This document shows, one piece after another, positions 8,612 through 30,758 of a DNA stretch of 44,209 nucleotides. The first letter of the stretch is position 1, and every line of letters begins with the position of its first letter. Source of the stretch: Natronomonas sp. CBA1123. Its GTDB lineage: Archaea; Halobacteriota; Halobacteria; Halobacteriales; Haloarculaceae. The stretch is from NCBI RefSeq assembly GCF_009741925.1, contig NZ_WPCC01000028.1, positions 1-44,209 of the forward strand, written 5' to 3'. The position numbers were made by a program, and so were the translations under genes. The notes under the pieces were generated by a model. The model was not told the DNA's origin, did not search any database, and saw only the letters and a program-made list of their open reading frames with translations.

Positions 8612-9136
8612 ATGCCCGGTCCAGCCTTCCTCCGCGGCGATACGGTCGACCTCCACACGGTCGAAGAAGACGACCTGCCGTTCCTCCATCGGCTCGTCAA
8701 CGACCCACGCGTCTGGCGGTCGCTGTTCAACGCCGACCCTCAGACGATGGCCGACGAGCAGGCGTTCTACGAGAACGTCGTCACCGCCGACGGCGAGGTC
8801 CACCTGCTCATCTGTGACGACGGCGACCCCGTCGGAATCATCGGCCTCAATAGCATCGACCCGAGTTGGGGCATCGCCGAGGTCGGCTACTACGTCGACC
8901 CCGACGCCCACGGCCAGGGGTATGCGACGGCTGCAGTCGCGTTGCTCGTCGAGTACGCCTTCGACCAGCGCCGCCTCGAGAAACTGAAAGCCGATGCCTT
9001 GGCGACCAACGAGGCGAGTCAGCGCGTCCTCGAGAAGAACGGCTTCGTCGAGGAGGGTCGCTTCCGAGAACACGGGTACGTCGACGGCGAGCGCGTCGAC
9101 GTGGTCCGGTACGGGCTGCTGGCCTCGGACCGCTAG
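8612..9136 (+). CDS. GNAT family N-acetyltransferase (RimJ/RimL-like)
   Basis: A 174-residue acetyl-CoA-dependent acyltransferase. Seen: beta strands up to GIIGLNSI, then EVGYYVDPDAHGQGYATAA at about 90-108. HGQGYAT is the Q/RxxGxG/A acetyl-CoA pyrophosphate loop. The later NEASQRVLEKNGF is the typical C-terminal helix and strand of RimJ/RimL-type proteins. The substrate could be a protein N-terminus or a small amine and cannot be read from sequence. Its 3' end overlaps the convergent next gene by 4 bases. Confidence 0.9.
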   Translation: MPGPAFLRGDTVDLHTVEEDDLPFLHRLVNDPRVWRSLFNADPQTMADEQAFYENVVTADGEVHLLICDDGDPVGIIGLNSIDPSWGIAEVGYYVDPDAHGQGYATAAVALLVEYAFDQRRLEKLKADALATNEASQRVLEKNGFVEEGRFREHGYVDGERVDVVRYGLLASDR

Positions 9137-9606
9137 AACGCGGCCGACGACTCCGAGACGCTCTGTCGCCACGCCGCGCCCTCTGCGGGCGTCGTGGTTT
9201 CGGCGTCGCCGTCGGCGCTCGCCTCGAACAGCGCCGAGAGTTGCCACACTTCTCGCTCGGAGGCGTCACACTGCAGACAGACTAACGAGACCCGGTCGAG
9301 CGCCTCGATGCGGCAGTCGACGCCGGTCTGTCGCTCGACGAGTTCCCTCGCCGCCGCCGGCAGTGACCCACCCGCCTCGACGACGCCGCCGGGGGTCACC
9401 CACTCGTCGTCGCCGCTGACGGCCAAGACGCCGTCGGCACCTTCGACACGAACCCGAACCTCGGCGATGTCACCGCGACCCTCGACGGACTCGAACTCCT
9501 CGCTGTCGACTGACACCGTCGTCTGCTGTACGTCGAATCCCTCGTATCGCTCGTAGAGTGCGTCCAGATACGCGGAGACGCCGCCGGAGATATCGGGAGA
9601 ACTCAT
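9133..9606 (-). CDS. NUDIX-like domain protein with degenerate Nudix box
   Basis: A 157-residue protein with a NUDIX-type core: strands, then GGVVEAGGS at about 77-85 and AARELVERQTG at about 89-99. In active enzymes the box is GX5EX7REUXEEXGU. Here the glutamate after GG-xx-E-x-G is Gly, and the REUXEE part is RELVERQTG, with one of the metal-binding glutamates replaced and an extra residue. A C-x2-C pair (VCLQCD) follows. Catalytic competence is doubtful; a binding role is possible. I chose the start at ATG 9606 (MSSPDIS), not the upstream one at 9645. Confidence 0.72.
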   Translation of the reverse strand: MSSPDISGGVSAYLDALYERYEGFDVQQTTVSVDSEEFESVEGRGDIAEVRVRVEGADGVLAVSGDDEWVTPGGVVEAGGSLPAAARELVERQTGVDCRIEALDRVSLVCLQCDASEREVWQLSALFEASADGDAETTTPAEGAAWRQSVSESSAAF

Positions 9607-9654
9607 TGACAGGTCGAAGTTCGGGAGCCCCATAAACCCGTCCAATCCGGAACC

Positions 9655-10713
9655 TTACAGGACGCCGGTGACTGTGGCCGCCTCGATTGCGGCGTCCTCC
9701 TCGATGCCGTCACCCAAGATGGTGTAGCGGTCCCGAATCTCGTGGGCCGTCGTCATCGCCTCGATGAACTGCTCGGGGTCGATGCCGAGGTCCTCGGCGG
9801 TCGTCGGCGCGTCGATGCCGGCCAGCGCATCGTGGACGCGGTGCCACTCCCCGCTTTCGCCGCTGTGGAGGTACTCCGTGACGATGGAGGCGACGCCGAC
9901 CTGGTGGCCGTGCAACGCCGCACCGGGTGCGATTCGGTCCAACTGGTGGGAGATGAGGTGTTCGGCACCCGAGGCGGGACGAGAGGAACCCGCAATCGAC
10001 ATTGCCACGCCCGAGGACACGAGCGCCTTCACGACGACCCACGCCGACTCCTCTAAACCGCGTTTGATAGAGCTCGATTGCTCGACGAGCATCTCGGCGG
10101 TCATCTGTGAGAGCGCGCCGGCGTACTCGCTGTACTCGACGTTCTTCAGCCGGTGGGCTAACTGCCAGTCCTTCACCGCCGTGTAGTTTGAGATGATGTC
10201 GGCACAGCCGGCGGTCGTCAGCCGCCACGGCGCTTCGGCGATGAGTTCCGTGTCGGCGATGACCGCAAGCGGCGGGTCGGCGGCGACGGAGTGGCGGCTG
10301 TCGCCGTCCGGCACCGACCCCCGCCCGGAGACGATGCCGTCGTGGCTGGCCGCCGTCGGTACCGAGACGAACCCACAGCCGCGCTCGTCGGCCGCCATCT
10401 TCGCGATGTCGATGGGTTTGCCACCGCCCAAGCCGATGAGAAAGCCGGCATCGACCGCTTCGGCCGTCTCCAAGACATCCTCGACTGCGGAGAAGGTGGC
10501 TTCCTCGACGATAGCAATCGCGGGGTCGAAGCCGGCGGCCTCGAAGGCCTCGACGAGACGGTCAGCGGCCAACTCCTCCGGCGTCGGCGAGGTGACGATG
10601 AGCGGCCGCCCGGTGAGATACAACTCGTCGATGACCTCGACGGCGCTGTCGAGGACGCCGTGACCGACGACGACGCTTCGCGGCAGGCGAATCCACGACG
10701 ACTTCTCGAACAT
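9655..10713 (-). CDS. egsA: sn-Glycerol-1-phosphate dehydrogenase
   Basis: A 352-residue enzyme that reduces dihydroxyacetone phosphate to sn-glycerol-1-phosphate, the step that sets archaeal membrane lipid stereochemistry. Seen: the NAD(P)-binding glycine loop GLGGGKPIDIAK, VPTAASHDGIVSGR, and the zinc-binding region with histidines in GAEHLISHQLD and ALHGHQVGV. ATG 10713 (MFEKSSW) gives the family's normal length; the open frame continuing to 11100 is a shadow of the epimerase gene. It lies 37 bases downstream of the epimerase on the same strand and may be co-transcribed. Confidence 0.95.
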   Translation of the reverse strand: MFEKSSWIRLPRSVVVGHGVLDSAVEVIDELYLTGRPLIVTSPTPEELAADRLVEAFEAAGFDPAIAIVEEATFSAVEDVLETAEAVDAGFLIGLGGGKPIDIAKMAADERGCGFVSVPTAASHDGIVSGRGSVPDGDSRHSVAADPPLAVIADTELIAEAPWRLTTAGCADIISNYTAVKDWQLAHRLKNVEYSEYAGALSQMTAEMLVEQSSSIKRGLEESAWVVVKALVSSGVAMSIAGSSRPASGAEHLISHQLDRIAPGAALHGHQVGVASIVTEYLHSGESGEWHRVHDALAGIDAPTTAEDLGIDPEQFIEAMTTAHEIRDRYTILGDGIEEDAAIEAATVTGVL

Positions 10714-20196: not shown

Positions 20197-20853
20197 TCAG
20201 TCGTCGGCGGCGACCGAATCGAACGTCTCATGCGACTCCAGTGGTGGGACGATTTCCTCGGCGGGTTGGTCGTCGCCGCCGAGTCGGGTACGGCGGTCGC
20301 GGACCGTGTGATACGCCGCGGTTCCGGACACCGCGAGCGCGATGCACAACGCGTAGCCGAACCCCGGAACCAAGTCGAACGGCCGAACCCCGAGCGCCGC
20401 GACGGTGACGAGGGCGGTGAACACGGCGCCGAGTCCGAGATAGAACTGACTCCACGGGAGGTCGTCGGTCGGGACGATGTCGAGGTAGATGTCGAGTTGG
20501 CTGACGTGGGGCGTCATCCCGACGACGCCGCGGTCGCTGTCGTACTCGATTACCTCGAGTTGCGACATCTTCGGGAGGTGGGTCTGGTACAGCGCCGTGT
20601 ACACACGTTTGCGGAGTTTCGGCGTCACCGACTCGCGGTCGATGCCGTTCTCCCACGCGGCGACCTGTTCGGAGAGGTCCCGAACCGTCACCGGTTCCCC
20701 TCGCTGTTTGAGGTAATGGAGCGTGTACCGCCGGCGCTGACTGCTCAGCGTCTCGAACACCGCCTCCGTCGAAAGCGCCCCCGACTCGGAGTCGTCGGAA
20801 CCGTTAGAATCTAGCCCCCCGCGGTTCCCCTCCTCTGCGGCTATGGCTACCAT
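20197..20853 (-). CDS. Winged-helix membrane-linked regulator, DUF7344 type (paralog 1)
   Basis: A 218-residue protein. The N-terminal half (about 28-115) has the haloarchaeal DUF7344-type winged-helix features: SSQRRRYTLHYLK, RDLSEQVAAWEN, LRKRVYTALYQTHLPKM and a wing-like VIEYDSDRGVV. Two membrane helices follow (about 138-156 and 162-182), then an acidic tail. This is a candidate transcription regulator tethered to the membrane. It shares architecture with the next gene upstream (20938-21495), evidence of a tandem duplication. Together they adjoin the divergent TasA-like cluster, which they may control (inference). A CTATAAG box lies at 20904-20910. Confidence 0.83.
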   Translation of the reverse strand: MVAIAAEEGNRGGLDSNGSDDSESGALSTEAVFETLSSQRRRYTLHYLKQRGEPVTVRDLSEQVAAWENGIDRESVTPKLRKRVYTALYQTHLPKMSQLEVIEYDSDRGVVGMTPHVSQLDIYLDIVPTDDLPWSQFYLGLGAVFTALVTVAALGVRPFDLVPGFGYALCIALAVSGTAAYHTVRDRRTRLGGDDQPAEEIVPPLESHETFDSVAADD

Positions 20854-20902
20854 GTCTCTCTCCCCCTAATCGAACCAAACGCATCGAAACGACATATACA
20901 CC

Positions 20903-20911
20903 ACTTATAGA
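20903..20911 (-). promoter_or_regulatory. TATA box of regulator paralog 1
   Basis: CTATAAGTGG on the minus strand, about 54 bases before ATG 20853, predicts a leader of about 25 bases. That leader contains a GGGGGAGAG Shine-Dalgarno-like stretch just before the ATG. Confidence 0.5.
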
Positions 20912-20937
20912 TGGTTGCCATATCAGGTATGGATACC

Positions 20938-21495
20938 TTATTGCTCTCCGGGTTCGGTGAGTGAGCGCAGACTGCGTCGGTCCGCAATCAGATGGCACAC
21001 GGAGGTTCCCGCGAGCAGCGCCAGCGCCGCGCTGGCCCACAGCAGCGGGTCGAGAAGCGACACCACCGGAAGCCCCGCCAACGCGCCGACGACGAGACAG
21101 AGCCCGAGGATGCCGATACCACGATACAGCTCCGTCCACGAAATACCGAACATCGCGACGGGCGTGGCGTAGTGTCGAACCGACCGAGCCGCGGCGAGCG
21201 CCCGAACTTCCCGGCTATCGGCGTCGTAGGACACCAACCCGAGGTCGGCCAACCGCGGGACGTGGGTCTGTCGCAGCGAGTTGTACACGCTCTCACGAAG
21301 CGGCGACGGGGGCTGGTCACAGCCCGCTTCGGCTGCCGCGACCGCGTCGGCGAGCCGCGAAACCGACATCGTCCCCTCGTGACTGAGCAGCCGAAGCGCC
21401 GTCGCCCGGCGCGGACTGCTCAGTACGCGGTGTACGGTCGTCTCCGAAATACGGTGCTCGGGGTAGCGCCCTGCTACCTGGTCCCCACTCGACAT
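20938..21495 (-). CDS. Winged-helix membrane-linked regulator, DUF7344 type (paralog 2)
   Basis: A 185-residue protein, 84 bases upstream of its paralog. Seen: SSPRRATALRLLSHEG, a second helical element, then LRESVYNSLRQTHVPRLADLGLVSYDADSREV, aligning motif by motif with the LRKRVYTALYQTHLPKM region of paralog 1. Two membrane helices follow, separated by a short turn, and a basic tail. I chose ATG 21495 (MSSGDQV) because a GGTTATCA box lies about 27 bases upstream; the longer frame to 21591 is basic and unlike haloarchaeal protein. It is divergent from the TasA-like operon, sharing a 285-base regulatory region. Confidence 0.8.
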   Translation of the reverse strand: MSSGDQVAGRYPEHRISETTVHRVLSSPRRATALRLLSHEGTMSVSRLADAVAAAEAGCDQPPSPLRESVYNSLRQTHVPRLADLGLVSYDADSREVRALAAARSVRHYATPVAMFGISWTELYRGIGILGLCLVVGALAGLPVVSLLDPLLWASAALALLAGTSVCHLIADRRSLRSLTEPGEQ

Positions 21496-21518
21496 GCACC
21501 AACAGAGGTCCACGGGGT

Positions 21519-21526
21519 GATAACCA
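21519..21526 (-). promoter_or_regulatory. TATA-like box of regulator paralog 2
   Basis: GGTTATCA on the minus strand, centred about 27 bases before ATG 21495, predicts a leaderless transcript. A 5-base inverted repeat ACCGG-TTTCGA-CCGGT (21537-21552) lies just upstream and could be an operator. Confidence 0.45.
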
Positions 21527-21644
21527 TGGGGAGCATACCGGTTTCGACCGGTCGGTTTCGCCAGACGGAGAGCCGCCGGAACGGTGACCATACCGGGACG
21601 AAAACCGAGCGTTTAGCCGGGTAGGACTATCGTACCGACTCGAC

Positions 21645-21657
21645 GAACGGGCCGTTC
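21645..21657. promoter_or_regulatory. Palindromic candidate operator in the divergent regulator/TasA-like intergenic region
   Basis: GAACGG-G-CCGTTC is a perfect 6-base inverted repeat around one base, about 45 bases upstream of the best TATA-like sequence for the plus-strand cluster. It is a natural candidate target for the adjacent winged-helix proteins. That link is inference only. Confidence 0.35.
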
Positions 21658-21696
21658 AGCCGGTCTCAACGCCGCGTTCTGTACATGGTCCGCTGT

Positions 21697-21780
21697 CTTT
21701 ACCTATGACCCCTCCCCCCAGAGGGAAACCTATCCCGAGGCGTCAGGGGACGACCCACGACCCGCGGGGAGTGAACCAAC
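21697..21780 (+). promoter_or_regulatory. Candidate promoter and leader of the TasA-like cluster
   Basis: A TATA-like TTTACCTA at 21698-21705 would give a leader of roughly 50-60 bases ending in GGGGAGTGAACCAAC before ATG 21781. The GGGGAGTGA stretch resembles a Shine-Dalgarno site, and a leadered first gene is unusual in this window. Confidence 0.3.
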
Positions 21781-23130
21781 ATGACCGACGACAACAAACC
21801 CACGACGTACAGCCTCTCGCGCCGCAAGACACTCGCCGGACTCGGGGCCATCGGCCTCGCCTCCGCCGGCGCCGGGCTCGGGACCTCCGCGTTCTTCAGC
21901 GACCAAGAGTCCTTCACCGGAAACACCCTCACCGCGGGCACGCTCGACCTGCGTGTTCCCTACGAAGCCTCCTACGACAGCGGCGGCACGGTCGAGAACA
22001 TGGCCGATGAAGCCATGGGAACCCAGGACGGCGACCCCGCGGGGATGTTCTACGACCTCCAAGACGTGAAACCCGGCGACTCCGGCCACGTCGAGTTCTG
22101 CTTCGAAATCGTCGACAACCCCTCCTACATGTGGGCCTGTGGTGACCTCACCCAAGCCGAAAACGGGATGACCGAACCCGAGATGGATGTCGACAACACG
22201 CCGGACATCGGCGAACTCGGCGACGCTATCGACGCACGGCTCTCCTACTGCGACGAAGTCGACGGCGAATTCGTTGAAGGCGAGGAAATCGTCTCCGGCT
22301 CGCTCGTCGACGTGTTCGCGGCCATCTCCGGCGGCGCCGCGCTCGACGGCGACGGCGTCGCTGGCCTCGCACCCGGCGAACAATCCCCGTACGACGAGGA
22401 AGCCGTCGAGGACGATGAGGAGTACATCACCGGCGCCTGCCTGTGCCTGTACTGGGAAATCCCCTACGAGGTGGGCAACGAGATTCAGTCCGACTCCCTG
22501 ACGATGGCACTGGAGTTCCACGCGCTGCAGTCCCGCCACAACGACGGGACGACCAACCCCTGTGAACCCACCATCACCACCCGAACCGGTGAGGGCTTCG
22601 CCAAACAAGAGGAGTTCGCCACCGAACAGGAGACCTCCTTCGCACGCGGCCGCTTCGGTAACAACGGCCCCTCCGGCTCGTGGGAAGTCGCCGTCGGCCC
22701 CGACGTCATCAGCGCCGACACGGCTAACTACGTCTGGACGCCCGGCGAAACCGTCGCGTTCAGCTACAACTACGACGGCAGCGGCAACGCCTCGTTCGCT
22801 CTCGATGTCGATGACGCTAACGTGAACGTCGCAAGCGGCATCCCTGCCCCGAGCGGCAAACTCGCCATCACGACGAAGGCCGACGAGGCCACCGTCAGCG
22901 TCGAGAACCTCACACTCGACCTCGACGGCGTTCCGACGGCCCTCAGCGGCCCCGACGCGATTTCGGCATCCAACGACGGCCCCGACCGCGACCTCACCTA
23001 CCTCGTCTTCGACACCGACGCGGCAGACGTCGCGAACGCGTTCACCATCAGCGGTGACGTGACCGTCGACGTCCAGGGCGACTACCCGGGCACCGAGGAA
23101 GGCGTCGCCTTCGACATCAGCGTCGAGTAA
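21781..23130 (+). CDS. TasA/camelysin-like secreted protein with SipW-type signal and C-terminal beta-rich extension
   Basis: A 449-residue exported protein. The N-terminus combines a twin-arginine motif (SRRKTLAG, 13-20) with the SipW-type cleavage region SAFFSDQES (36-44) and downstream N-x3-AGTLDL. The TasA-like beta domain (about 50-260) carries DVKPGDSG (95-102), CFEIVDNPSY, and a C-terminal core C-x-x-W-x-IP-x-x-VGN ending in QSRHND (about 250-255). Residues 260-449 are an extra Ser/Asp/Val-rich beta domain absent from the other paralogs. No membrane anchor or PGF-type C-terminal sorting motif is present. It is the first gene of the cluster; a fibre or surface-matrix subunit is inferred. 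Confidence 0.82.
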   Translation: MTDDNKPTTYSLSRRKTLAGLGAIGLASAGAGLGTSAFFSDQESFTGNTLTAGTLDLRVPYEASYDSGGTVENMADEAMGTQDGDPAGMFYDLQDVKPGDSGHVEFCFEIVDNPSYMWACGDLTQAENGMTEPEMDVDNTPDIGELGDAIDARLSYCDEVDGEFVEGEEIVSGSLVDVFAAISGGAALDGDGVAGLAPGEQSPYDEEAVEDDEEYITGACLCLYWEIPYEVGNEIQSDSLTMALEFHALQSRHNDGTTNPCEPTITTRTGEGFAKQEEFATEQETSFARGRFGNNGPSGSWEVAVGPDVISADTANYVWTPGETVAFSYNYDGSGNASFALDVDDANVNVASGIPAPSGKLAITTKADEATVSVENLTLDLDGVPTALSGPDAISASNDGPDRDLTYLVFDTDAADVANAFTISGDVTVDVQGDYPGTEEGVAFDISVE

Positions 23131-23143
23131 TCGCGGACACTCA

Positions 23144-23158
23144 CCCGGGGGTCCCGGG
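23144..23158 (+). terminator. GC-rich intercistronic hairpin between the first two TasA-like genes
   Basis: CCCGGG-GGT-CCCGGG lies 14 bases after the first gene's stop and 28 bases before the next ATG. There is no T tract. It could lower readthrough or stabilise an mRNA end rather than fully terminate. Confidence 0.3.
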
Positions 23159-23185
23159 CCGAACCAAACTACACAACACGAAATC

Positions 23186-24613
23186 ATGAACGACGAAACA
23201 CAACCACACGGCCTCTCCCGCCGGAAGATGCTCGCCGGTATCAGCGCCGTCGGCGTCGCGAGCGCAGGCGCGGGACTCGGTACCTCCGCGTTCTTCAGCG
23301 ACACCGAATCCTTCGACGACAACACCCTCACCGCCGGCACCCTCGATTTGAAACTCGATTACAAATCGACGTACCTCGGCGGCCCCGGCCGCCTCGACGA
23401 CGTCGTGGCGATGGGCTACCCCGACGCCGAGGACCTCGGCGACGGCCGGTACCTCCTCGACCAGGCCCCCAGCCCCGCCGACATGCAGGCCTGGGAGGAC
23501 CTCGTCCAGGGCGATGAGTTCGACTTCTGTTCGCCCGAAGCCGACGAGTACCTCGTCAACGGCGACGGAATTCCGGTGTTCACGCTCGAAGACGTGAAAC
23601 CCGGCGACTCCGGCGAGGTGACAATCAGTCTCCACATCTGTGACAACCCCGCGTACCTCCAGCTGTTCGGCGCCCTCACGGAGAACTTGGAGAACGGTCA
23701 GACCGAATCCGAGCTGGACGCCGAAGGCGAGGATTCCGACGGACTCGGTGAACTCGCCGACGCCATCGAGGTCTGCGTCTGGTACGACGAGGACTGCGAC
23801 AACGTCTACGAGCCGACCGGCACCGGTCAACAGAACGAACTGGAAGTCGCACTCGTCAGCGACGTCTCGGGTTCGATGGGTGGGTCGGCGCTGTCCTCGC
23901 TGAAGACCGCGGCCACGACGTTCGTCGACAACCTCTCCTCGCCGGACGAAGCCGCCGCAATCTCGTTCAACTCCAGCGCGGCGACCGACCAGGAGCTGAC
24001 GACGGACTACCAACTCGTCAAGGACGCCATCAACGCCTACACGGCAGGTGGTGGCACGTCCATCGCCGCCGGCATCATCGAAGGCGAGGACGAACTGCTC
24101 AACGGGACCAACGCCACGCCCGGCGCGTCGAAGGTGATGATTCTGTTGAGCGACGGCAATTCCGACGCCAGCGACGCGATTTCGGCAGCCAACGACGCGA
24201 AGAACGTGGGCATCCGCATCTTCACCGTCGCACTCGGCAGCGCGAACACGAGCCTCCTCCAGAGCCTCGCGAGTTCGCCCGACGACGCCTTCGTCGCACC
24301 CGACCCAGCCGACCTCGACACCGTCTACGCCGAAATCGCACAAATCGTCCTCGAGGGCGAACAGAAGATCCTCTCCGGAACGATGGCCGAAGTCTTCGGC
24401 CAGCTCTCCGAGGGGTTGCTCCTCGACGGCAACCGCCAAGAAGAGGGCGTCCAGCCCTACCCGGGTGCGACGACCCAGTGTATCGGCTTCGAGTGGGAAC
24501 TGCCCTTCGAGGTCGGCAACGAGGTCCAGAGCGATTCGGTCGCCTTCGACATCGGCGTCAACGCCGAACAGAGCCGCCACAACGACAGTCCGTTCGCGGA
24601 GGCCGACAACTGA
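23186..24613 (+). CDS. TasA-like secreted protein with an inserted VWA domain
   Basis: A 475-residue exported protein. Signal: twin-arginine SRRKMLAG followed by SAFFSDTESFDDNTLTAGTL (SipW type). The N-terminal TasA-like part carries DVKPGDSG (136-143), HICDNPAY and VWYDEDCDNVYE. A full von Willebrand A domain follows (about 219-388) with MIDAS residues DVSGS (226-230), GGGTS and LSDGNSD (D323). The chain then returns to the TasA-like fold (about 389-475) with C432-IGFEWELPFEVGN and QSRHND. The VWA domain is therefore nested between strands of one beta domain. MIDAS-type VWA domains bind metal and protein ligands (known), so adhesion or filament-tip function is inferred. Confidence 0.85.
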   Translation: MNDETQPHGLSRRKMLAGISAVGVASAGAGLGTSAFFSDTESFDDNTLTAGTLDLKLDYKSTYLGGPGRLDDVVAMGYPDAEDLGDGRYLLDQAPSPADMQAWEDLVQGDEFDFCSPEADEYLVNGDGIPVFTLEDVKPGDSGEVTISLHICDNPAYLQLFGALTENLENGQTESELDAEGEDSDGLGELADAIEVCVWYDEDCDNVYEPTGTGQQNELEVALVSDVSGSMGGSALSSLKTAATTFVDNLSSPDEAAAISFNSSAATDQELTTDYQLVKDAINAYTAGGGTSIAAGIIEGEDELLNGTNATPGASKVMILLSDGNSDASDAISAANDAKNVGIRIFTVALGSANTSLLQSLASSPDDAFVAPDPADLDTVYAEIAQIVLEGEQKILSGTMAEVFGQLSEGLLLDGNRQEEGVQPYPGATTQCIGFEWELPFEVGNEVQSDSVAFDIGVNAEQSRHNDSPFAEADN

Positions 24614-24626
24614 TTCGGCCGATTGA

Positions 24627-24646
24627 GCTGGGGTATCTCCCCCAGC
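24627..24646 (+). terminator. Hairpin after the second TasA-like gene
   Basis: GCTGGGG-TATCTC-CCCCAGC is a 7-bp stem with a 6-base loop, 14 bases after the stop codon. It lies in a 160-base gap before the next gene, suggesting partial termination or processing here. Confidence 0.4.
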
Positions 24647-24723
24647 CGAGCTACGGTCCCCCACTTGGAGCATGACGTCTTTGGGCCGTTCGAGGACGCA
24701 TGGCACGGGCACCACCCGTGAAA

Positions 24724-24742
24724 CGGCGGTTCGACTCCGCCG
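24724..24742 (+). other. tRNA T-arm-like hairpin in the leader of the third TasA-like gene
   Basis: A 6-bp stem (CGGCGG/CCGCCG) closes the 7-base loop TTCGACT, which matches the tRNA T-loop consensus. No D-arm, anticodon arm or pairing acceptor stem accompanies it, so it is not a tRNA. The 13 bases GGTTCGACTCCGC recur at 26537-26549 in the leader of the fourth gene, giving a direct repeat around the third gene. Confidence 0.5.
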
Positions 24743-24773
24743 GTGGGCTTTCCCCGACCGGGGAGACACAATC

Positions 24774-26486
24774 ATGACAGACAACAACAGCAACAACCCG
24801 ATGGCTCTCTCGCGCCGTCGCATGCTCGCCGGCCTCGGAGCCGTCGGCGTCGCAAGCGCGGGCGCCGGCTTCGGCACCACCGCGTTCTTCTCCGACGAGG
24901 AGAGCTTCGTGGACAACAGCCTCGTTGCCGGCGAACTCGACCTGCTCATCGACTGGCAACAGACCTACGACTTCGGCGAAGGCCACACCTTCGTCAGCGC
25001 CCACCCCGACCACGACGGCGACGGGGAACAGTCCATCGCGGCCGACAACGACGCCGGCCAACTCAAATACAGCGACTTCCCGGACGTGGAAGACCCGGAC
25101 AGCAACGGGGCGAACATCCCGGAACTGAACTGTGAGAACATCCCGCCGCTGTCGGAAGCCGACTTCGGCACCGACCCCGTGACGGGCGAGGAGATGGAGA
25201 CGTTGGTGCAACTTACCGACGTCAAACCCGGCGACTCCGGCGAGATTACGTTCTCGCTGCACCTCTGTGACAACCCCGGCTACGTCTGGATGCAGGCCGG
25301 CAACGTCAGCGACGAGGGCGGTATTGCCGCCGAACCCGAGCTGTTGGTCGACCCCGACAACCTCGGGAATCTCGGCGAGGCAATCCAGGCGACGTTGTGG
25401 TACGACGAGGACTGCGACAACGTCTACGACGGCGCCGAGCCGGTCGACATCATGCTCACGCTGGATTTCTCCGGCTCGATGCTGTACGACCAGTACGGTG
25501 GCGTCGTCTCCGAGGACGACATCAGTATCAACGAAACTACGTACGGCGAGACGACGAAAATCGACCTCGTCGAACTCGGTGCCCGACAGTTCGTCGACTA
25601 CCTGCAGTCGCAGGGCTCCGACGTGAACATCGGCGTCGCGTACTTCGACGGCGAGGGCAGCGACGACACCGAGCCCCGGACCGGCATCCTCCAGACGATG
25701 ACGACCGACCTGTCGGTCGTCGACGGTGCGCTGTCCGGACTCCGACAGAAGCTCGCGAACGTCGTCAGCGGTGGCCCCGGCTCGACGCCGTCCGACGGTG
25801 ACGGTGACCCCGACCCGTTCTCGAACGCGGACGGTATCGCGACTGGCACCTACATCGGTGAGGGCGTCGACGATGCACAGGACGAACTGGCCGCCAACGG
25901 ACGGAGCGGCGCCGAAAAGCGGAACATCGTCCTCTCGGACGGCGAGTCGTTCAACGGCACTGGCAGTACCCAGTTCTCGTCGCCGACCGGCGCTGCGAGC
26001 GACGCGCGGGCAGCGTCTCCGGCGCCGGAAACGGACGTCTACACGATTAACGTCAACGGCAGCGCCAGCACGCTACAGGCGATGGCGGGACCGGCCGGCG
26101 GCTCCGGCGGTGACCCGGCGTTCTTCAACGACGTCGACGACCCCCTCGACATCCCCAGCGTGTTCGGCAGCCTCGCGGCCCAGACCGTCGCGGAGAAGGT
26201 CATCATGCAGGATTCGTTGGGCAACATCCTCACCAAACTGGCCGACGGCAACGGCATCCCGCTGGACGGTAACCGCGCGACGTTGTACGACGAGCTGGAG
26301 GACTCTTCGGACGACCCGGACCGCGAGCCGTTCCGCGGTGACGGCGTGATGCACTGCGTCGCGCTGTCGTGGGAACTGCCCTTCGAGGTCGGCAACGAGG
26401 TGCAGGGCGACACGCTCGGATTCGACCTCGGCTTCTACACCGAGCAGGCACGGCACAACGACGGCAGCGGGCCGGCGCTGTCCTAA
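24774..26486 (+). CDS. Second TasA-like secreted protein with an inserted VWA domain
   Basis: A 570-residue paralog of the preceding gene. Signal: SRRRMLAG and TAFFSDEESFVDNSLVAGEL. TasA-like N-terminal part with DVKPGDSG (149-156), HLCDNPGY and LWYDEDCDNVYDG. The inserted VWA domain (about 223-470) has MIDAS LDFSGSM (D231) and LSDGESF (D389), and is longer than in its neighbour through an acidic Gly/Pro/Ser loop. The closing TasA-like part begins at about 480 and has C528-VALSWELPFEVGN and QARHND. I chose ATG 24774 because the signal peptide begins there; the open frame further upstream is not haloarchaeal-like. No C-terminal anchor is seen. Confidence 0.85.
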   Translation: MTDNNSNNPMALSRRRMLAGLGAVGVASAGAGFGTTAFFSDEESFVDNSLVAGELDLLIDWQQTYDFGEGHTFVSAHPDHDGDGEQSIAADNDAGQLKYSDFPDVEDPDSNGANIPELNCENIPPLSEADFGTDPVTGEEMETLVQLTDVKPGDSGEITFSLHLCDNPGYVWMQAGNVSDEGGIAAEPELLVDPDNLGNLGEAIQATLWYDEDCDNVYDGAEPVDIMLTLDFSGSMLYDQYGGVVSEDDISINETTYGETTKIDLVELGARQFVDYLQSQGSDVNIGVAYFDGEGSDDTEPRTGILQTMTTDLSVVDGALSGLRQKLANVVSGGPGSTPSDGDGDPDPFSNADGIATGTYIGEGVDDAQDELAANGRSGAEKRNIVLSDGESFNGTGSTQFSSPTGAASDARAASPAPETDVYTINVNGSASTLQAMAGPAGGSGGDPAFFNDVDDPLDIPSVFGSLAAQTVAEKVIMQDSLGNILTKLADGNGIPLDGNRATLYDELEDSSDDPDREPFRGDGVMHCVALSWELPFEVGNEVQGDTLGFDLGFYTEQARHNDGSGPALS

Positions 26487-26536
26487 GCCCTAAACGACTG
26501 GACACGCCCTGTCACCGTCCCACGCTGGCGTACGGG

Positions 26537-26549
26537 GGTTCGACTCCGC
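26537..26549 (+). repeat. Second copy of the 13-base T-arm-like sequence
   Basis: GGTTCGACTCCGC is identical to 24728-24740. Here the flanks pair only weakly (GG/CC next to the loop), so the primary sequence, not the hairpin, is what is conserved. The two copies flank the gene at 24774-26486. Confidence 0.5.
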
Positions 26550-26697
26550 ACACGTCGAGTCGCCGTAGCCGCTGTATCGACGGCGGTACGAACACCCTAC
26601 CGCTCAACGACGAGGCGACACTCGACCCATACCTATGCGATATCCTCCCCAGTGGGAGAGCAACACGAGCGGCCGAACGCGGCCGGAGACTGATGAA

Positions 26698-27483
26698 ATG
26701 CAATTCACACGACGACAACTGCTGGCAGGAATCGGAGGGGGGACGCTCGCAGCCGGCGGCATCGCCGCGGCTCGGCCAGCCGACCCTACGTTCACGAGAT
26801 ACACCTACGCGGCGCCGGACACCGACGACCGCCGGCTCCGCGTCGCGTGGTACGAGCGATACAACGGCGCGTTTCTCGAACACCAAAACGGGACCGAAGC
26901 GGTGACGCTCACCGACGCGCTCGATCCGGCGACTGACCCCGAATACGTCGTCGAAGCCAACGGCCCGGTCGTCTCGCTTTCGAACGTCGTCCCCGGGGAT
27001 AGCGGTACCTTGGTCGTGGGCCTCGAAGTCGTCGACGATGAGGGCGCAGAACCACTCGATGTCTACGTGCGCGCGTCGCTGACGGAGGACGAGGAAAACC
27101 GCGTCAACGGACCCGAACTCGCGGCCGGGGATGACCCGGACAGCGACGAGGGAGAACTCGGTGCCGCGACCGAAGTCGCCCTCTGGCGTGACGGCGTGCC
27201 GGGTGGCAGTTGTGACGGCCAGTTCCAGCCGATGGCCGGCTTCGGCGAAACCGCTATCGCCGAAGGGTCGATGAAGTCGGCGTTCGCGGGGGAGTTGGCA
27301 AACGATGGCGAACTCGCAATCGACTGTCTGTCCGTCGGTTCGATTCGGTGTATCTCGCTGTCGTGGCGAGTCCCGATGGGTGTGGGCAACGTTGTCCAGA
27401 CCGACAGCGTCGGGTTCGACATCGCCTTCGGCGGCGTCCCCTGTGGCGGCGAGAACCCCTTCACGATGGAGGCGGCCGAATGA
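26698..27483 (+). CDS. Divergent TasA-like Tat-exported protein
   Basis: A 261-residue protein with twin-arginine TRRQLLAG (about 5-12) but without the AFFSD cleavage box, so it may be handled by another signal peptidase or remain anchored. It keeps the family signatures: NVVPGDSG (96-103) in place of DVKPGDSG, and a C-terminal core C-x-SLSWRVP-x-x-VGN-x-VQTDS-VGFDIAFG. It ends in PCGGENPF instead of QSRHND. I chose ATG 26698 at the Tat motif; an in-frame ATG at 26635 would add 21 polar residues. Its stop overlaps the next ATG (ATGA), so the two are translationally coupled. Confidence 0.75.
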   Translation: MQFTRRQLLAGIGGGTLAAGGIAAARPADPTFTRYTYAAPDTDDRRLRVAWYERYNGAFLEHQNGTEAVTLTDALDPATDPEYVVEANGPVVSLSNVVPGDSGTLVVGLEVVDDEGAEPLDVYVRASLTEDEENRVNGPELAAGDDPDSDEGELGAATEVALWRDGVPGGSCDGQFQPMAGFGETAIAEGSMKSAFAGELANDGELAIDCLSVGSIRCISLSWRVPMGVGNVVQTDSVGFDIAFGGVPCGGENPFTMEAAE

Positions 27484-28547
27484 CGCTCAGCAGGCGCCGC
27501 GTGTTGGCGGCACTCGCCACGGCCGGCGGAGCGGGCGTGGTCACCGGCGGCGGGACGGCCGCCCTGTTGGACGACGACGAACGCCTCACGGGCGCCATCG
27601 GCGCCGGCGCCGTCGACCTCGCAGTCGGCTACGAAGTGCTGGCCGGACCGAACGCGGGCGAAACGGGACGCAACAACGGACGGACGCTCGGACTCCCCGT
27701 TGCCGACCTCACGGAAAGCGACGACAGCGGGACGGCACTCGTCAGCGTCTCTCTTCCAGACCTCCCGGAGAGCGTCAACAATCCGGCGGCCGTCTGGCTT
27801 CGGTTGGACTGCCCGCCGGCGTCGGCGCTGTCGGAACACCTCTCAGTTCGGCTCTCGTATGCCGATTGTACGACCGGTGCTCGCGGCGACACCATCGCCG
27901 ATGGCTCGCTTCTTTCCGTCGCCGACGGACTGCGGAACGGCGAACTGCTCGATGCCGACGCCTCGACCGCTCCGGTCGACTGTCTGACCGACGAACTGTG
28001 TCTCCTCGTCGAGTACTGGCTCGACGAAGGGTACGTCGGAACCGACGCCACCGAGCTGTCGTTCGATGTCTACGGCGTCCAGTGTCGCAACGACGAGACG
28101 AGAGCGAACCCGTTCCCACCGCGGCCGCGCTGTGACACCTACGATCCCTGTGTGTGCTGTGACCGGCTCGGAAAGCTGGAGTTCGAGGACGGAGCGGCTC
28201 CCGGAATCGGTGATAGCTACATCGAACCGGGTGTCTACGCGTTCAGCGAAGGCGGCGACGGCTACGAAATCGAGATATACGACACAGTGGAGAAAGACGG
28301 CGGCGACGAAACCACGGCGGTCGCGTTCCGCCTCCACCGAACCGACGGGGGAACGCCCCCAACCCTGTGTGAGGTGGGCATCAAGGCGGGCCCCGGTGAC
28401 CCACAGCCCTACACCGCGGGAGAGCAGCCGACCAACGACACGGCGTCGCTGGAAGACGGCGGCCTGCTGTACGCCGACGACGACAGGGGAATCAGCCACG
28501 TCACCGTCGCCGTCTGCTCGACCGACTGTGAGGAGGAGAACCAATGA
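27480..28547 (+). CDS. TasA-like secreted protein with Cys-rich C-terminal domain
   Basis: A 355-residue protein with Tat motif SRRRVLAA and a weak SipW-like region AALLDDDERLTG followed by GAGAVDLAVGYE. The N-terminal 210 residues align in style with the other TasA-like proteins (LCLLVEYW, VGTDATELSFDVYGVQCRND). A distinct C-terminal domain (about 215-355) begins with a cysteine cluster, CDTYDPCVCCDRLG, and continues as a beta-rich region with two further cysteine sites. Coupled by ATGA overlaps to the genes on both sides; GGAGG lies 9 bases before its ATG. Probably an accessory subunit of the same surface structure (inference). Confidence 0.75.
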   Translation: MTLSRRRVLAALATAGGAGVVTGGGTAALLDDDERLTGAIGAGAVDLAVGYEVLAGPNAGETGRNNGRTLGLPVADLTESDDSGTALVSVSLPDLPESVNNPAAVWLRLDCPPASALSEHLSVRLSYADCTTGARGDTIADGSLLSVADGLRNGELLDADASTAPVDCLTDELCLLVEYWLDEGYVGTDATELSFDVYGVQCRNDETRANPFPPRPRCDTYDPCVCCDRLGKLEFEDGAAPGIGDSYIEPGVYAFSEGGDGYEIEIYDTVEKDGGDETTAVAFRLHRTDGGTPPTLCEVGIKAGPGDPQPYTAGEQPTNDTASLEDGGLLYADDDRGISHVTVAVCSTDCEEENQ

Positions 28548-29500
28548 CAGACGAAACCACTACAACCGAGGAGACGGCGACGAGCGACACCCAACCGGAA
28601 CGGGAATCGGCACCGGAGAAGTCGTCCGAAACCACCACCAGCGGTCGGGCACGCCGTATCGCGGCCGTTCTCGGGTTCGTCCTCCTCGTGGCGCTCGTCG
28701 TCCCCTTCGTGGTGTTCGCGGTGCCCCAGACCATCGGCGCCGACCACGGGTTCGTCGTCCTTTCGGGGAGCATGGAACCGGCCATCTCGCCCGGTGACGT
28801 CGTCATCGTCGCCAGCGGCCCGGTCACAGTCGGTGACGTCATCACCTACCGGACGGGCAACGAGGTGCCGACGACCCACCGAATCGTCGAGGAAGTCGAC
28901 GGCGCCTACCGGACGAAAGGCGACGCCAACGAGAACGCCGACGCCGGACTCGTCGCCCCCGAACAGGTGCTCGGCAGCGTCATCGTCATCATCCCGCTCA
29001 TCGGCTACGTCATCCTGTGGGCGAACACGACCCTCGGGTTCGTGCTGTTGGTCGTGGTGCCGCTGGTCCTTCTCGGTGGCATGGAGGTGTACCGTTTCCT
29101 CCGTGACCCGGAGGAAGAATACGCCACCGCGACCGCGGCGACGGACGGTGGAGCGAGCGTCTCCGACGGGAGTTCGCCTGCCGAAGGGGCTACCGATGCC
29201 GAGACCAACTCCTCTGAAACGTCACCACAAAAGACCGTCGAGGTCGCTGGATTCGACCTGACACTAACGTTCTGGGTGCTGTTGGCCTTCGCCGCGTACG
29301 CCGGCTACGTGCTCTTCACGGAAGTGAGCCGAACCGGCGTCCCGAGTGCCGTCGGCGTCGGCGTGTTCACCGGCGCACTCGTCGGGTTCCTGCTGGTCGC
29401 CGCGTTGGTGGGCCGAGAGCGTCTCCGCACTCGCCGGCAGGACGCCGAACCGGTTGCCGTGACGGACCCGGACGCCGACGGAACCCCCGGAGGTGACTGA
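28544..29500 (+). CDS. SipW-like signal peptidase I dedicated to the TasA-like cluster
   Basis: A 318-residue membrane serine protease. Seen: a Thr/Ser/Glu-rich cytosolic tail (1-35), a first helix (38-60), and the catalytic Ser76 in LSGSMEP. H112 in TTHRIV takes the place of the bacterial lysine, as in SipW/archaeal-eukaryotic enzymes, and D127 lies in KGDANENAD. A helix pair follows (about 143-185), then a long polar linker and two more helices (about 236-257 and 266-290) not needed for catalysis. SipW enzymes process TasA-type signals (known), and four genes here carry such signals, so these are its likely substrates. Start coupled by ATGA to the upstream gene, with GAGGAG just before. Confidence 0.9.
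   Translation: MTDETTTTEETATSDTQPERESAPEKSSETTTSGRARRIAAVLGFVLLVALVVPFVVFAVPQTIGADHGFVVLSGSMEPAISPGDVVIVASGPVTVGDVITYRTGNEVPTTHRIVEEVDGAYRTKGDANENADAGLVAPEQVLGSVIVIIPLIGYVILWANTTLGFVLLVVVPLVLLGGMEVYRFLRDPEEEYATATAATDGGASVSDGSSPAEGATDAETNSSETSPQKTVEVAGFDLTLTFWVLLAFAAYAGYVLFTEVSRTGVPSAVGVGVFTGALVGFLLVAALVGRERLRTRRQDAEPVAVTDPDADGTPGGD
29489..29496 (+). promoter_or_regulatory. Perfect Shine-Dalgarno site before the acidic SipW-type gene
   Basis: GGAGGTGA sits 5 bases before ATG 29502 and fits the 16S rRNA 3' end at every position. It is the strongest ribosome-binding site noticed in the window. It fixes the start of a gene whose frame is broken 110 bases later. Confidence 0.7.
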
Positions 29501-29501
29501 G

Positions 29502-30621
29502 ATGGCAAACGACATCGCCGTCGCCATCGCCGTCGTGGCGGTGTTCGTCGCCGCGACGGTCGGTTCCGCGGGCGGAACGGCTGCGCTGCTGTCCGACCAG
29601 GAATCGGTGACCGTCCCCCGTCAGCGCCGACGTGGCGCCGCCAGTCCAGCCAGTCGAGGACGACAATGACACAGGCCCTTCGGCCGAAGGGTTCTCGCCG
29701 CCGTCAGCCGGTCCACCCGGAGGACCGACCGCGTTCGCACGCGGAGGTGGCCCCGGTGGCGACAGCCTCGATAGCGATACCAGTGCCCCGACGACGGTAT
29801 CGACCGACGACGAACAGCCGGACGGCGAACAGCCACCCACCGAACAGACTGACGACTCACCGACGGTCGAAAACGGCTCCAGCGACGGAACGGACCCGGA
29901 CGGAGAACCCGCCGAGGAACCGGGCGAAAACACGCCCGAGTCGAACGACGAGGGAGACGGTTCGACGACCGAGGACGAATCGGACGCCGGTTCACAATCC
30001 ACTGACGGGTCCGGTGATGCCGAACCCGAGGGCGAGACGTCGGAAGATGCCGGCGAGGCGGACGCTGACGGTGCCGACGCCGACAGTGCTGACGATACCG
30101 CGGACGACGAGGACGCCGGTACCGACGCCGAGGCCGAAGAGCAGACCGACGACGGTGTCGACTCGACCGACGGTGCCACCGAGACGCCAGAAGCCGACGA
30201 ACAGTCCACCGACGATGGCGAGCAGGCTCCCGACGATGGACAAGCCACCGACGAGCAAGCGGACGACTCGACGGAGGACGGTGTCGAAACCGAGTCGACC
30301 GACTCCGACGACGAATCCGCGAACGACTCCTCATCGACCGACGGTAGCGACACTGACGGGGCAGTCACCGACGATGAGACGACAGATGAGGACACGACAG
30401 ACGCCGGGACGGCAGACGACGGAACGACTGACGGCGACACTTCGACCGACGGCGACACTTCGACCGACGGCGACACTTCGACCGACGGCGACACTTCGAC
30501 CGACGGAACGACCGCCGACGAAACGGACGCCTCAACGAGCGACGCCGAAAGCGAGTCCACGGGCGGAGACACCGACGAATCAGACGAGACCGCCGACACG
30601 ACCGTGTCCGGCGAGTCCTGA
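29502..30621 (+). pseudogene. SipW-type signal protein with long acidic Thr/Ser/Asp-rich tail, frameshifted
   Basis: From ATG 29502 the frame encodes a hydrophobic signal and AALLSDQESVTV, a SipW-type cleavage region, then stops at 29669 in basic nonsense. The acidic continuation SADVAPPVQPVEDDND is clean in another frame to the stop at 30621. Removing one C from the C5 run at 29615-29619 joins them (VTVPVSADV) into a 372-residue protein. After the signal, nearly everything is low-complexity D/T/E/S/G/A, with four perfect 18-base repeats. Such tails suit an extended, salt-tolerant surface stalk. No C-terminal anchor is visible. The frameshift is probably an error or a phase-variable run. Confidence 0.75.
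30430..30501 (+). repeat. Four tandem 18-base repeats encoding DGDTST
   Basis: The unit GACGGCGACACTTCGACC is repeated four times perfectly, each copy encoding Asp-Gly-Asp-Thr-Ser-Thr within the acidic protein. Repeat number is likely to vary between strains by slippage. Confidence 0.9.
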
Positions 30622-30758
30622 TGCGTATCCGAGGGGTCCCGACCATCGGCTTAATCGTGACGCTCCCGGGGATGCGCCCCGGGGCGAATCGCCGCAACGC
30701 GCTGGTGGCGCTGACGTATCTGTTCGGGCTGCTGCTCGTGATTTCACGGCTGTTGTAG
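30621..30758 (+). CDS. 45-residue hydrophobic peptide ending the TasA-like cluster
   Basis: A short frame whose ATG overlaps the stop of the acidic protein gene (TGATG), so it is probably translated by coupling. It encodes MRIRGVPTIGLIVTLPGMRP, then a basic turn (ANRRN) and one membrane helix (ALVALTYLFGLLLVISRLL). It may be a small membrane partner of the signal peptidase or the acidic protein. I do not recognise the family, and coding status rests on position, overlap and helix quality. Confidence 0.55.
   Translation: MRIRGVPTIGLIVTLPGMRPGANRRNALVALTYLFGLLLVISRLL

Follow-up and report, generated by a model that had tools for sequence, protein, structure and literature searches.

The stretch analysed here (the window) is the 44,209-nucleotide contig NZ_WPCC01000028.1 of Natronomonas sp. 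CBA1123 (C20 in a draft genome totalling 3.45 Mb), and it carries an accessory gene cluster that probably makes an adhesive surface fibre of the TasA family. The cluster comprises two DUF7344 genes (wHa and wHb), five exported proteins (g1 to g5), a SipW-like signal peptidase (sipW), an acidic protein (g7) and a small membrane peptide (g8). That these products assemble into a fibre is something we infer from several features, each with direct support in sequence or model: the genes themselves and their homology, a g1 core folded like TasA, a peptidase linked to the exported proteins, a conserved synteny and a set of promoter elements. The open reading frames (ORFs) listed in a preliminary description of this DNA were all present where it had placed them, and we regard them as real genes because the same genes recur in nearly the same order in ten loci (L035-L044) from seven genera: Natronomonas, Haloglomus, Halobellus (two loci), Halorarius, Halonotius (two), a Halodesulfurarchaeum metagenome-assembled genome and Halorientalis (two).

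The five exported proteins had been proposed to share a TasA/camelysin-like core, and profile comparisons bore this out by tying g4, g5 and g2 to g1 (E 9.2e-24, 1.5e-21 and 2.3e-51, respectively) and g3 to g2 (8.6e-74), with the signal region contributing part of each score; a direct comparison of g4 with g5 was weak (probability 53.6). The motifs first offered for this core needed revision, as C-x2-W-x-(I/L/V)P-x2-VGN fits g1 alone, C-x4-W fits g1 to g4, and the PGD motif attributed to all of the exported proteins is absent from g5, which also has no C-x4-W. The C-terminal Q-(S/A)-RHND is indeed present in g1, g2 and g3, although the copy in g1 closes its first domain and is followed by about 190 further residues. 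Scans with the SipW-dependent-type signal model TIGR04088 (cut-off 19 bits) placed g1 (26.7 bits) and g2 (27.5) over the cut-off and g3 on either side of it (16.5 bits in the protein scan, 22.2 in the genome scan), with g4 and g5 unmatched; among 23 g1/g2/g3-type proteins, 22 carried a SipW-type signal at E 0.01 and 2 matched the TasA model NF046066. All five signals appear to be of the twin-arginine translocation (Tat) type, as had been suggested, judging from a twin-arginine motif ahead of the hydrophobic stretch that was recovered by pattern in g2 to g5 and by eye in g1 (SRRKTL, missed by the pattern). The VWA insertions in the TasA-like core also stood, with g2 matching PF00092 at E 1.5e-23 and the more divergent g3 at 0.031, below the cut-off. 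In the g2 domain D226, S228, S230, T291 and D323, which we take to be the metal-ion-dependent adhesion site (MIDAS), are invariant in seven aligned rows. The C-terminal end of g1 is a choice-of-anchor W domain (NCBIfam, 70.9 bits against a cut-off of 45).

Comparison of folds pointed in the same direction for g1. Its model was built from 16 sequences and reached a mean predicted local distance difference test (pLDDT) score of 56, with ten-residue blocks of 38-84 over residues 51-260. When the best chains from Foldseek were realigned with this model, TasA 5of2 came out on top over residues 70-259 (Z 9.7, root-mean-square deviation 3.8 over 152 residues), and TasA 5of1 and the TasA fibre 8aur gave Z 9.5 and 8.6. 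For g1 the structural test of a TasA relation appears favourable, the TasA jelly-roll being the top match of a model of modest confidence. The second domain of g1 (282-449, pLDDT blocks 31-70) matched concanavalin-type lectins with Z up to 9.1, a value tied with that for TasA but belonging to a different, low-confidence part of the model, and its lectin-like nature is a lead only. The g2 model (mean pLDDT 71) returned VWA domains, which filled the list, and its core was not compared by fold. Nearest among these was the type V pilus tip Mfa5 (Z 23.5, 173 residues, 28 % identity), with the SpaC pilus adhesin at Z 20.2; because integrin and other VWA domains score only slightly lower, this match identifies a fold and not a function.

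The linked peptidase had been described as SipW-like with Ser-His-Asp catalytic residues, and S76, H112 and D127, presumably the catalytic residues, are invariant in 14 aligned rows. It qualifies as an archaeal/endoplasmic reticulum-type signal peptidase I (TIGR02228, 81.8 bits against a cut-off of 51.85; SEC11C, E 5.3e-17), and its closest relative among named genomes belongs to Natronomonas gomsonensis, with 95 % in the best segment. The C-terminal third of the peptidase contains a second hydrophobic region that is kept in the long clusters and absent from the Halococcus and Halorubrum relatives, whose clusters are shorter. Downstream, the acidic stalk-like protein g7 was upheld in part: here it consists of two ORFs in different frames, a signal from 29502 and an acidic part at 29632-30621, separated by an extra base in a run of C (within 29502-29640), and it is a single open gene in L006, L007 and L035. 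As these three relatives have one base fewer in that run, the break is either an assembly error or a real frameshift. The g7 signal has no RR, and its LLSDQESV resembles a SipW site. The 45-residue membrane peptide g8, also predicted earlier, was found in nine of the ten long loci.

Evaluating the wider distribution, we found that co-occurrence and order of the peptidase, the paralogs and the regulators are conserved across genera, as the preliminary description had asked to be checked. The loci L035-L044 share an order of two divergent DUF7344-type genes, g1/g3/g2-type genes, g4, g5, sipW, g7 and g8, and three of the genera (Natronomonas, Halonotius and Halodesulfurarchaeum) belong to different NCBI families. 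In these ten loci g4, g5 and sipW are always present, both regulators occur in nine (L042 is cut) and g7 in eight by phmmer; g2 is missing in L036, L039, L041 and L042, and g3 in L043. In the Halobellus locus L038, g5 is divided between two overlapping frames (8773-9914). Four-base overlaps of g4 with g5 and of g5 with sipW occur in the window and in 10/10 loci, with the sipW start of L038 and L043 set at the overlap by hand where the automatic choice lay further upstream. Shorter versions with one DUF7344-type regulator are found in Halococcus (L045) and Halorubrum (L046 and L048). Among 146 family genomes, 36 match the g4 profile (E 0.001), which also catches other TasA-like genes (a strong full-length g4, E < 1e-68, occurs in 15), and 44 match the peptidase profile (E 1e-20). 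All 36 fall within the 44, with the chosen pair 393-2554 bp apart; a Fisher value for this co-occurrence is not a clean probability because the genomes are related.

As an accessory element that some genomes have and others lack, the block is inserted between proS and gltB. The distance between these two flanking genes is about 10-10.7 kb in the carriers G000, G009 and G015 and 0.19-2.75 kb in the 11 genomes that lack the block there (G001, G002, G004, G006, G010, G013, G014, G016, G017, G018 and G019), one of which (G016) has a related peptidase and TasA-like genes at another place; in the other 6 of the 20 genus genomes the pair was not found or not on one contig. Between genera the flanks mostly differ but have a few genes in common, according to rough gene calls. 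Three of the 10 loci, from two genera, have a TatA gene immediately beyond the cluster (L039 and L043 by Pfam, L044 by motif). Outside the haloarchaea, TasA-like ORFs were present in 15 of the 36 loci retrieved with the peptidase. In three candidate-phylum bacterial loci (L049, L050 and L051) the peptidase is accompanied by TasA-like ORFs with E values as low as 1e-40, of which one has a VWA domain. Judging from such sequences, the combination may reach beyond archaea.

Upstream of the exported proteins, the two divergent winged-helix/membrane paralogs of the preliminary description both belong to DUF7344 (PF24035; 109 bits for wHa and 82.5 for wHb against a gathering score of 27.8), a family for which no publication was found in the open literature searched. 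The DNA before g1 and g4 is conserved: over 150 bases upstream, in the eight loci common to the three genes, 22 columns are invariant for g1, 5 for g3 and 16 for g4, and 60 shuffles of the g1 set gave at most 3. At P1, 5' of g1, TAnnnCCCC is separated from CCCGA by exactly 21 bases in 11/11 loci, and the exact form has one match in its own genome. Such exact forms are not universal; one was found in G131 alone of 146 genomes (control: one backward match), and the Natronomonas form in G000 alone of 21 genomes, hence not in G009, though that genome carries the cluster. A second element, P2, was noticed because of the 16 invariant columns upstream of g4. There CATACCTAT occurs in 11/11 loci, mostly with a CGGTACG...CGTACCG-type inverted repeat ahead of it, and the longer CATACCTATG has one occurrence in its own genome (two for the pattern read backwards as a control). 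Four 8-base element cores gave 35 occurrences in the 11 cluster stretches and 0 in about 112 kb of flanks, against about 5.3 expected over the whole sequences, a count that takes overlaps twice, includes two occurrences inside g3 of L040 and L041, and uses cores chosen after the clusters had been viewed. In addition, CGGTAYG occurs 34 times in the wHb-g1 gap of 11 loci (2.86 expected), often every 21-22 bases, with none in L035 and L042 and one site in the window. From these patterns we read P1, P2 and the CGGTAYG sites as putative promoter and operator elements. The possibility that the g1 leader forms a conserved hairpin as RNA was considered and rejected, as RNAalifold gave 2 pairs and no covariation, for which reason the leader element is read as DNA.

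In five loci an extra gene in common lies between the two DUF7344 genes (L036:1967-2779, L037:677-1537, L038:1080-1892, L040:1587-2408 and L041:1494-2315), with a hydrophobic N-terminus, a Cys-rich end and no Pfam match over cut-off, and in L036 a CATACCTA element stands directly 5' of it. Elsewhere in the Natronomonas genome, locus L084 (C22:1-20000) is perhaps another DUF7344-linked export locus, as three DUF7344 genes are grouped there with a further signal peptidase homologue and with exported proteins that no Pfam family matches.

Taken as a fibre system, the cluster might work as follows. Proteins g1 to g5 would be exported, largely by Tat, and the peptidase would cut before FFSDxExF, whereupon the freed N-terminal strand would insert into the next subunit by donor-strand exchange, as in TasA. 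The likely backbone is g1, in most genera a core with nothing added; binding to surfaces would fall to the VWA subunits g2 and g3, along with the lectin-like part of g1 where present, and g4 and g5, translationally coupled to sipW like tapA in Bacillus, may start or adapt the fibre. We would assign g7 to the cell end, as a stalk, and see in g8 a membrane partner, with the DUF7344 pair perhaps controlling P1 (g1-g3) and P2 (g4-g8). More tentatively, and with less confidence than in the fibre itself, we suggest that Tat exports TasA-type subunits already folded, that the signal peptide holds the donor strand at the membrane until cleavage triggers polymerisation, that the VWA and lectin-like subunits make the product sticky, and that the membrane winged-helix pair switches the cluster through its own promoter elements.

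A number of results weigh against this proposal. The g1 model is of modest confidence; Foldseek found no match for it at E 0.001 or better and ranked 8aur 21st (E 0.025, probability 0.99), and the g1 sequence profile placed TasA at E 0.14-0.18 in the PDB, behind sialoadhesin chains. The g4 and g5 profiles had no PDB match up to E 10, and g4 has no FFSD site. The Bacillus SipW equivalog NF046067 scores the peptidase at 82.1 bits against a cut-off of 190, g7 is frame-broken in this assembly, and family and PDB scans of g4, g5 and g7, which included no direct comparison with TapA, gave no match of that name. As for dedicated regulation, the genome has many DUF7344 members (16 matches, of which 15 exceed the cut-off), and binding of the elements by these proteins is something we infer from position alone.

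Among other explanations, the one to be taken most seriously, although we think it rather improbable, is that the SipW-processed proteins act singly as adhesins, with a TasA-like core that forms no polymer and serves to display its VWA or lectin-like domain at the S-layer. Adhesin-type domains are present, a polymer is so far a prediction, and the missing PDB matches of g4 and g5 suit this account; set against it, the fold and the linked peptidase are those of fibre-forming TasA, and a backbone role fits g1 better than a display role because g1 is a plain core without an extra domain in L039-L044. Far less probable is a set of camelysin-like secreted metalloproteases with a cognate signal peptidase, an idea that draws on weak Peptidase_M73 matches in the N-terminal region of g1 (20.0 bits), g2 (20.5), g3 (15.4) and g5 (13.2), all under the Pfam gathering score of 22.5, with g4 unmatched; these matches span about 30-50 residues only, none of g1 to g5 has an HExxH motif, and TasA itself is a fibre-forming camelysin relative according to PMC9674648. 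We give hardly any credence to a chance meeting of a general signal peptidase with unrelated exported proteins, since different genera preserve the gene order and the overlaps and a close peptidase lies 0.4-2.6 kb away in 36/36 g4-profile genomes, even though the g4 profile finds nothing in 8 of the 44 genomes that have a close SipW match, and the second homologue on C22 indicates that such peptidases can occur away from this locus.

Gene models were corrected where relatives required it: the starts of g3 and g4, earlier put at the first ATG, are placed at 24774 and 26698. A tRNA-Arg called by ARAGORN between g2 and g3 (24659-24749) is treated as false, because a search with Rfam models gave no tRNA there up to E 1.

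Table. Features of the candidate fibre cluster, in window coordinates.
Feature	Position	Strand	Description	Evidence
wHa	20197..20853	-	DUF7344 winged-helix protein, two hydrophobic segments (by eye); likely regulator	PF24035 E 1.5e-31
wHb	20938..21591	-	Second DUF7344 protein, two hydrophobic segments; likely regulator	PF24035 E 2.8e-23
P1	21698..21738	+	Candidate promoter element 5' of g1: TAnnnCCCC, 21 bases, CCCGA	Same spacing in 11/11 loci
g1	21781..23130	+	Predicted Tat-type signal, SipW-type site, TasA-like domain, choice-of-anchor W (possibly lectin-like) domain	TIGR04088; NF041928; TasA Z 9.7
g2	23186..24613	+	TasA-like core with inserted VWA	PF00092; Mfa5 VWA Z 23.5; g2-g1 2.3e-51
g3	24774..26486	+	TasA-like core with more divergent inserted VWA	PF00092 (below cut-off); g2-g3 8.6e-74
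P2	26584..26637	+	Candidate element 5' of g4: inverted repeat and CATACCTATG	CATACCTAT in 11/11 loci; CATACCTATG once in own genome
g4	26698..27483	+	TasA-like, predicted Tat-type signal, no FFSD site, no VWA	g4-g1 9.2e-24
g5	27480..28547	+	Divergent member, predicted Tat-type signal, 4-base overlaps with g4 and sipW	g5-g1 1.5e-21; Pfam M73 E 0.081
sipW	28544..29500	+	SipW-like archaeal/SEC11-type signal peptidase, long C-terminal membrane extension	TIGR02228; SEC11C
g7	29502..30621	+	LLSDQESV-containing signal followed by an acidic stalk rich in Ser, Thr and Asp; reading frame interrupted here	Open gene in L006, L007, L035
g8	30621..30758	+	45-residue single-span membrane peptide	9/10 long loci (L035-L044)

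What this analysis adds is the accessory insertion, a gene order conserved from genus to genus, VWA domains built into a TasA-like core, TatA genes as neighbours, and promoter elements specific to the cluster. The word undescribed, used in the preliminary description, holds for the combination at most, as NCBIfam and Pfam already have names for the component families, and bundling pili resembling TasA have been published for an archaeon (cited in PMC9674648 and PMC10151520); for a TasA/SipW-type system in haloarchaea, we found no publication in the open literature that was searched. If our reading is true, it would mean that the principle of TasA matrix fibres applies in haloarchaea as well, provide a candidate haloarchaeal adhesive fibre unrelated to type IV pili, and raise the question of how folded, Tat-exported subunits could perform donor-strand exchange, while the cluster-specific promoter elements offer a direct handle on the role of the uncharacterised DUF7344 proteins.

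Among known systems, the cluster resembles tapA-sipW-tasA of Bacillus subtilis, with which it shares a TasA-type core, a SipW-type signal, a linked Ser/His/Asp peptidase and, in the g1 profile alignment, an LKPGD of TasA opposite DVKPGD. Unlike that operon, it has five paralogs, twin-arginine-type signals, an inserted VWA, an added lectin-like domain, the acidic g7, the membrane peptide g8 and DUF7344 neighbours, and its peptidase falls under the Bacillus SipW cut-off. To our knowledge, the Bacillus cereus camelysin operon has no VWA insertions, Tat-type signals or DUF7344 pair. Its arrangement sipW-calY1-bc_1280-calY2 resembles ours in joining several TasA relatives to one cognate peptidase, according to PMC10151520, which also reports camelysins in bacteria and archaea and a tapA-sipW overlap, where here the overlapping accessory gene is g5. 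The VWA fold is that of the pilus tip adhesins Mfa5 (type V pili) and SpaC, but in this cluster it is inserted in a TasA-like core and no usher or sortase gene was identified. Within archaea, a parallel is the archaeal bundling pilus (AbpA), which was absent among the 50 structural matches listed for the g1 model; it is cited as a TasA-related donor-strand fibre in an archaeon in PMC9674648, which gives the TasA donor strand as 28-38, and in PMC10151520, and bundling pili are also cited in PMC9715654, on archaeal threads.

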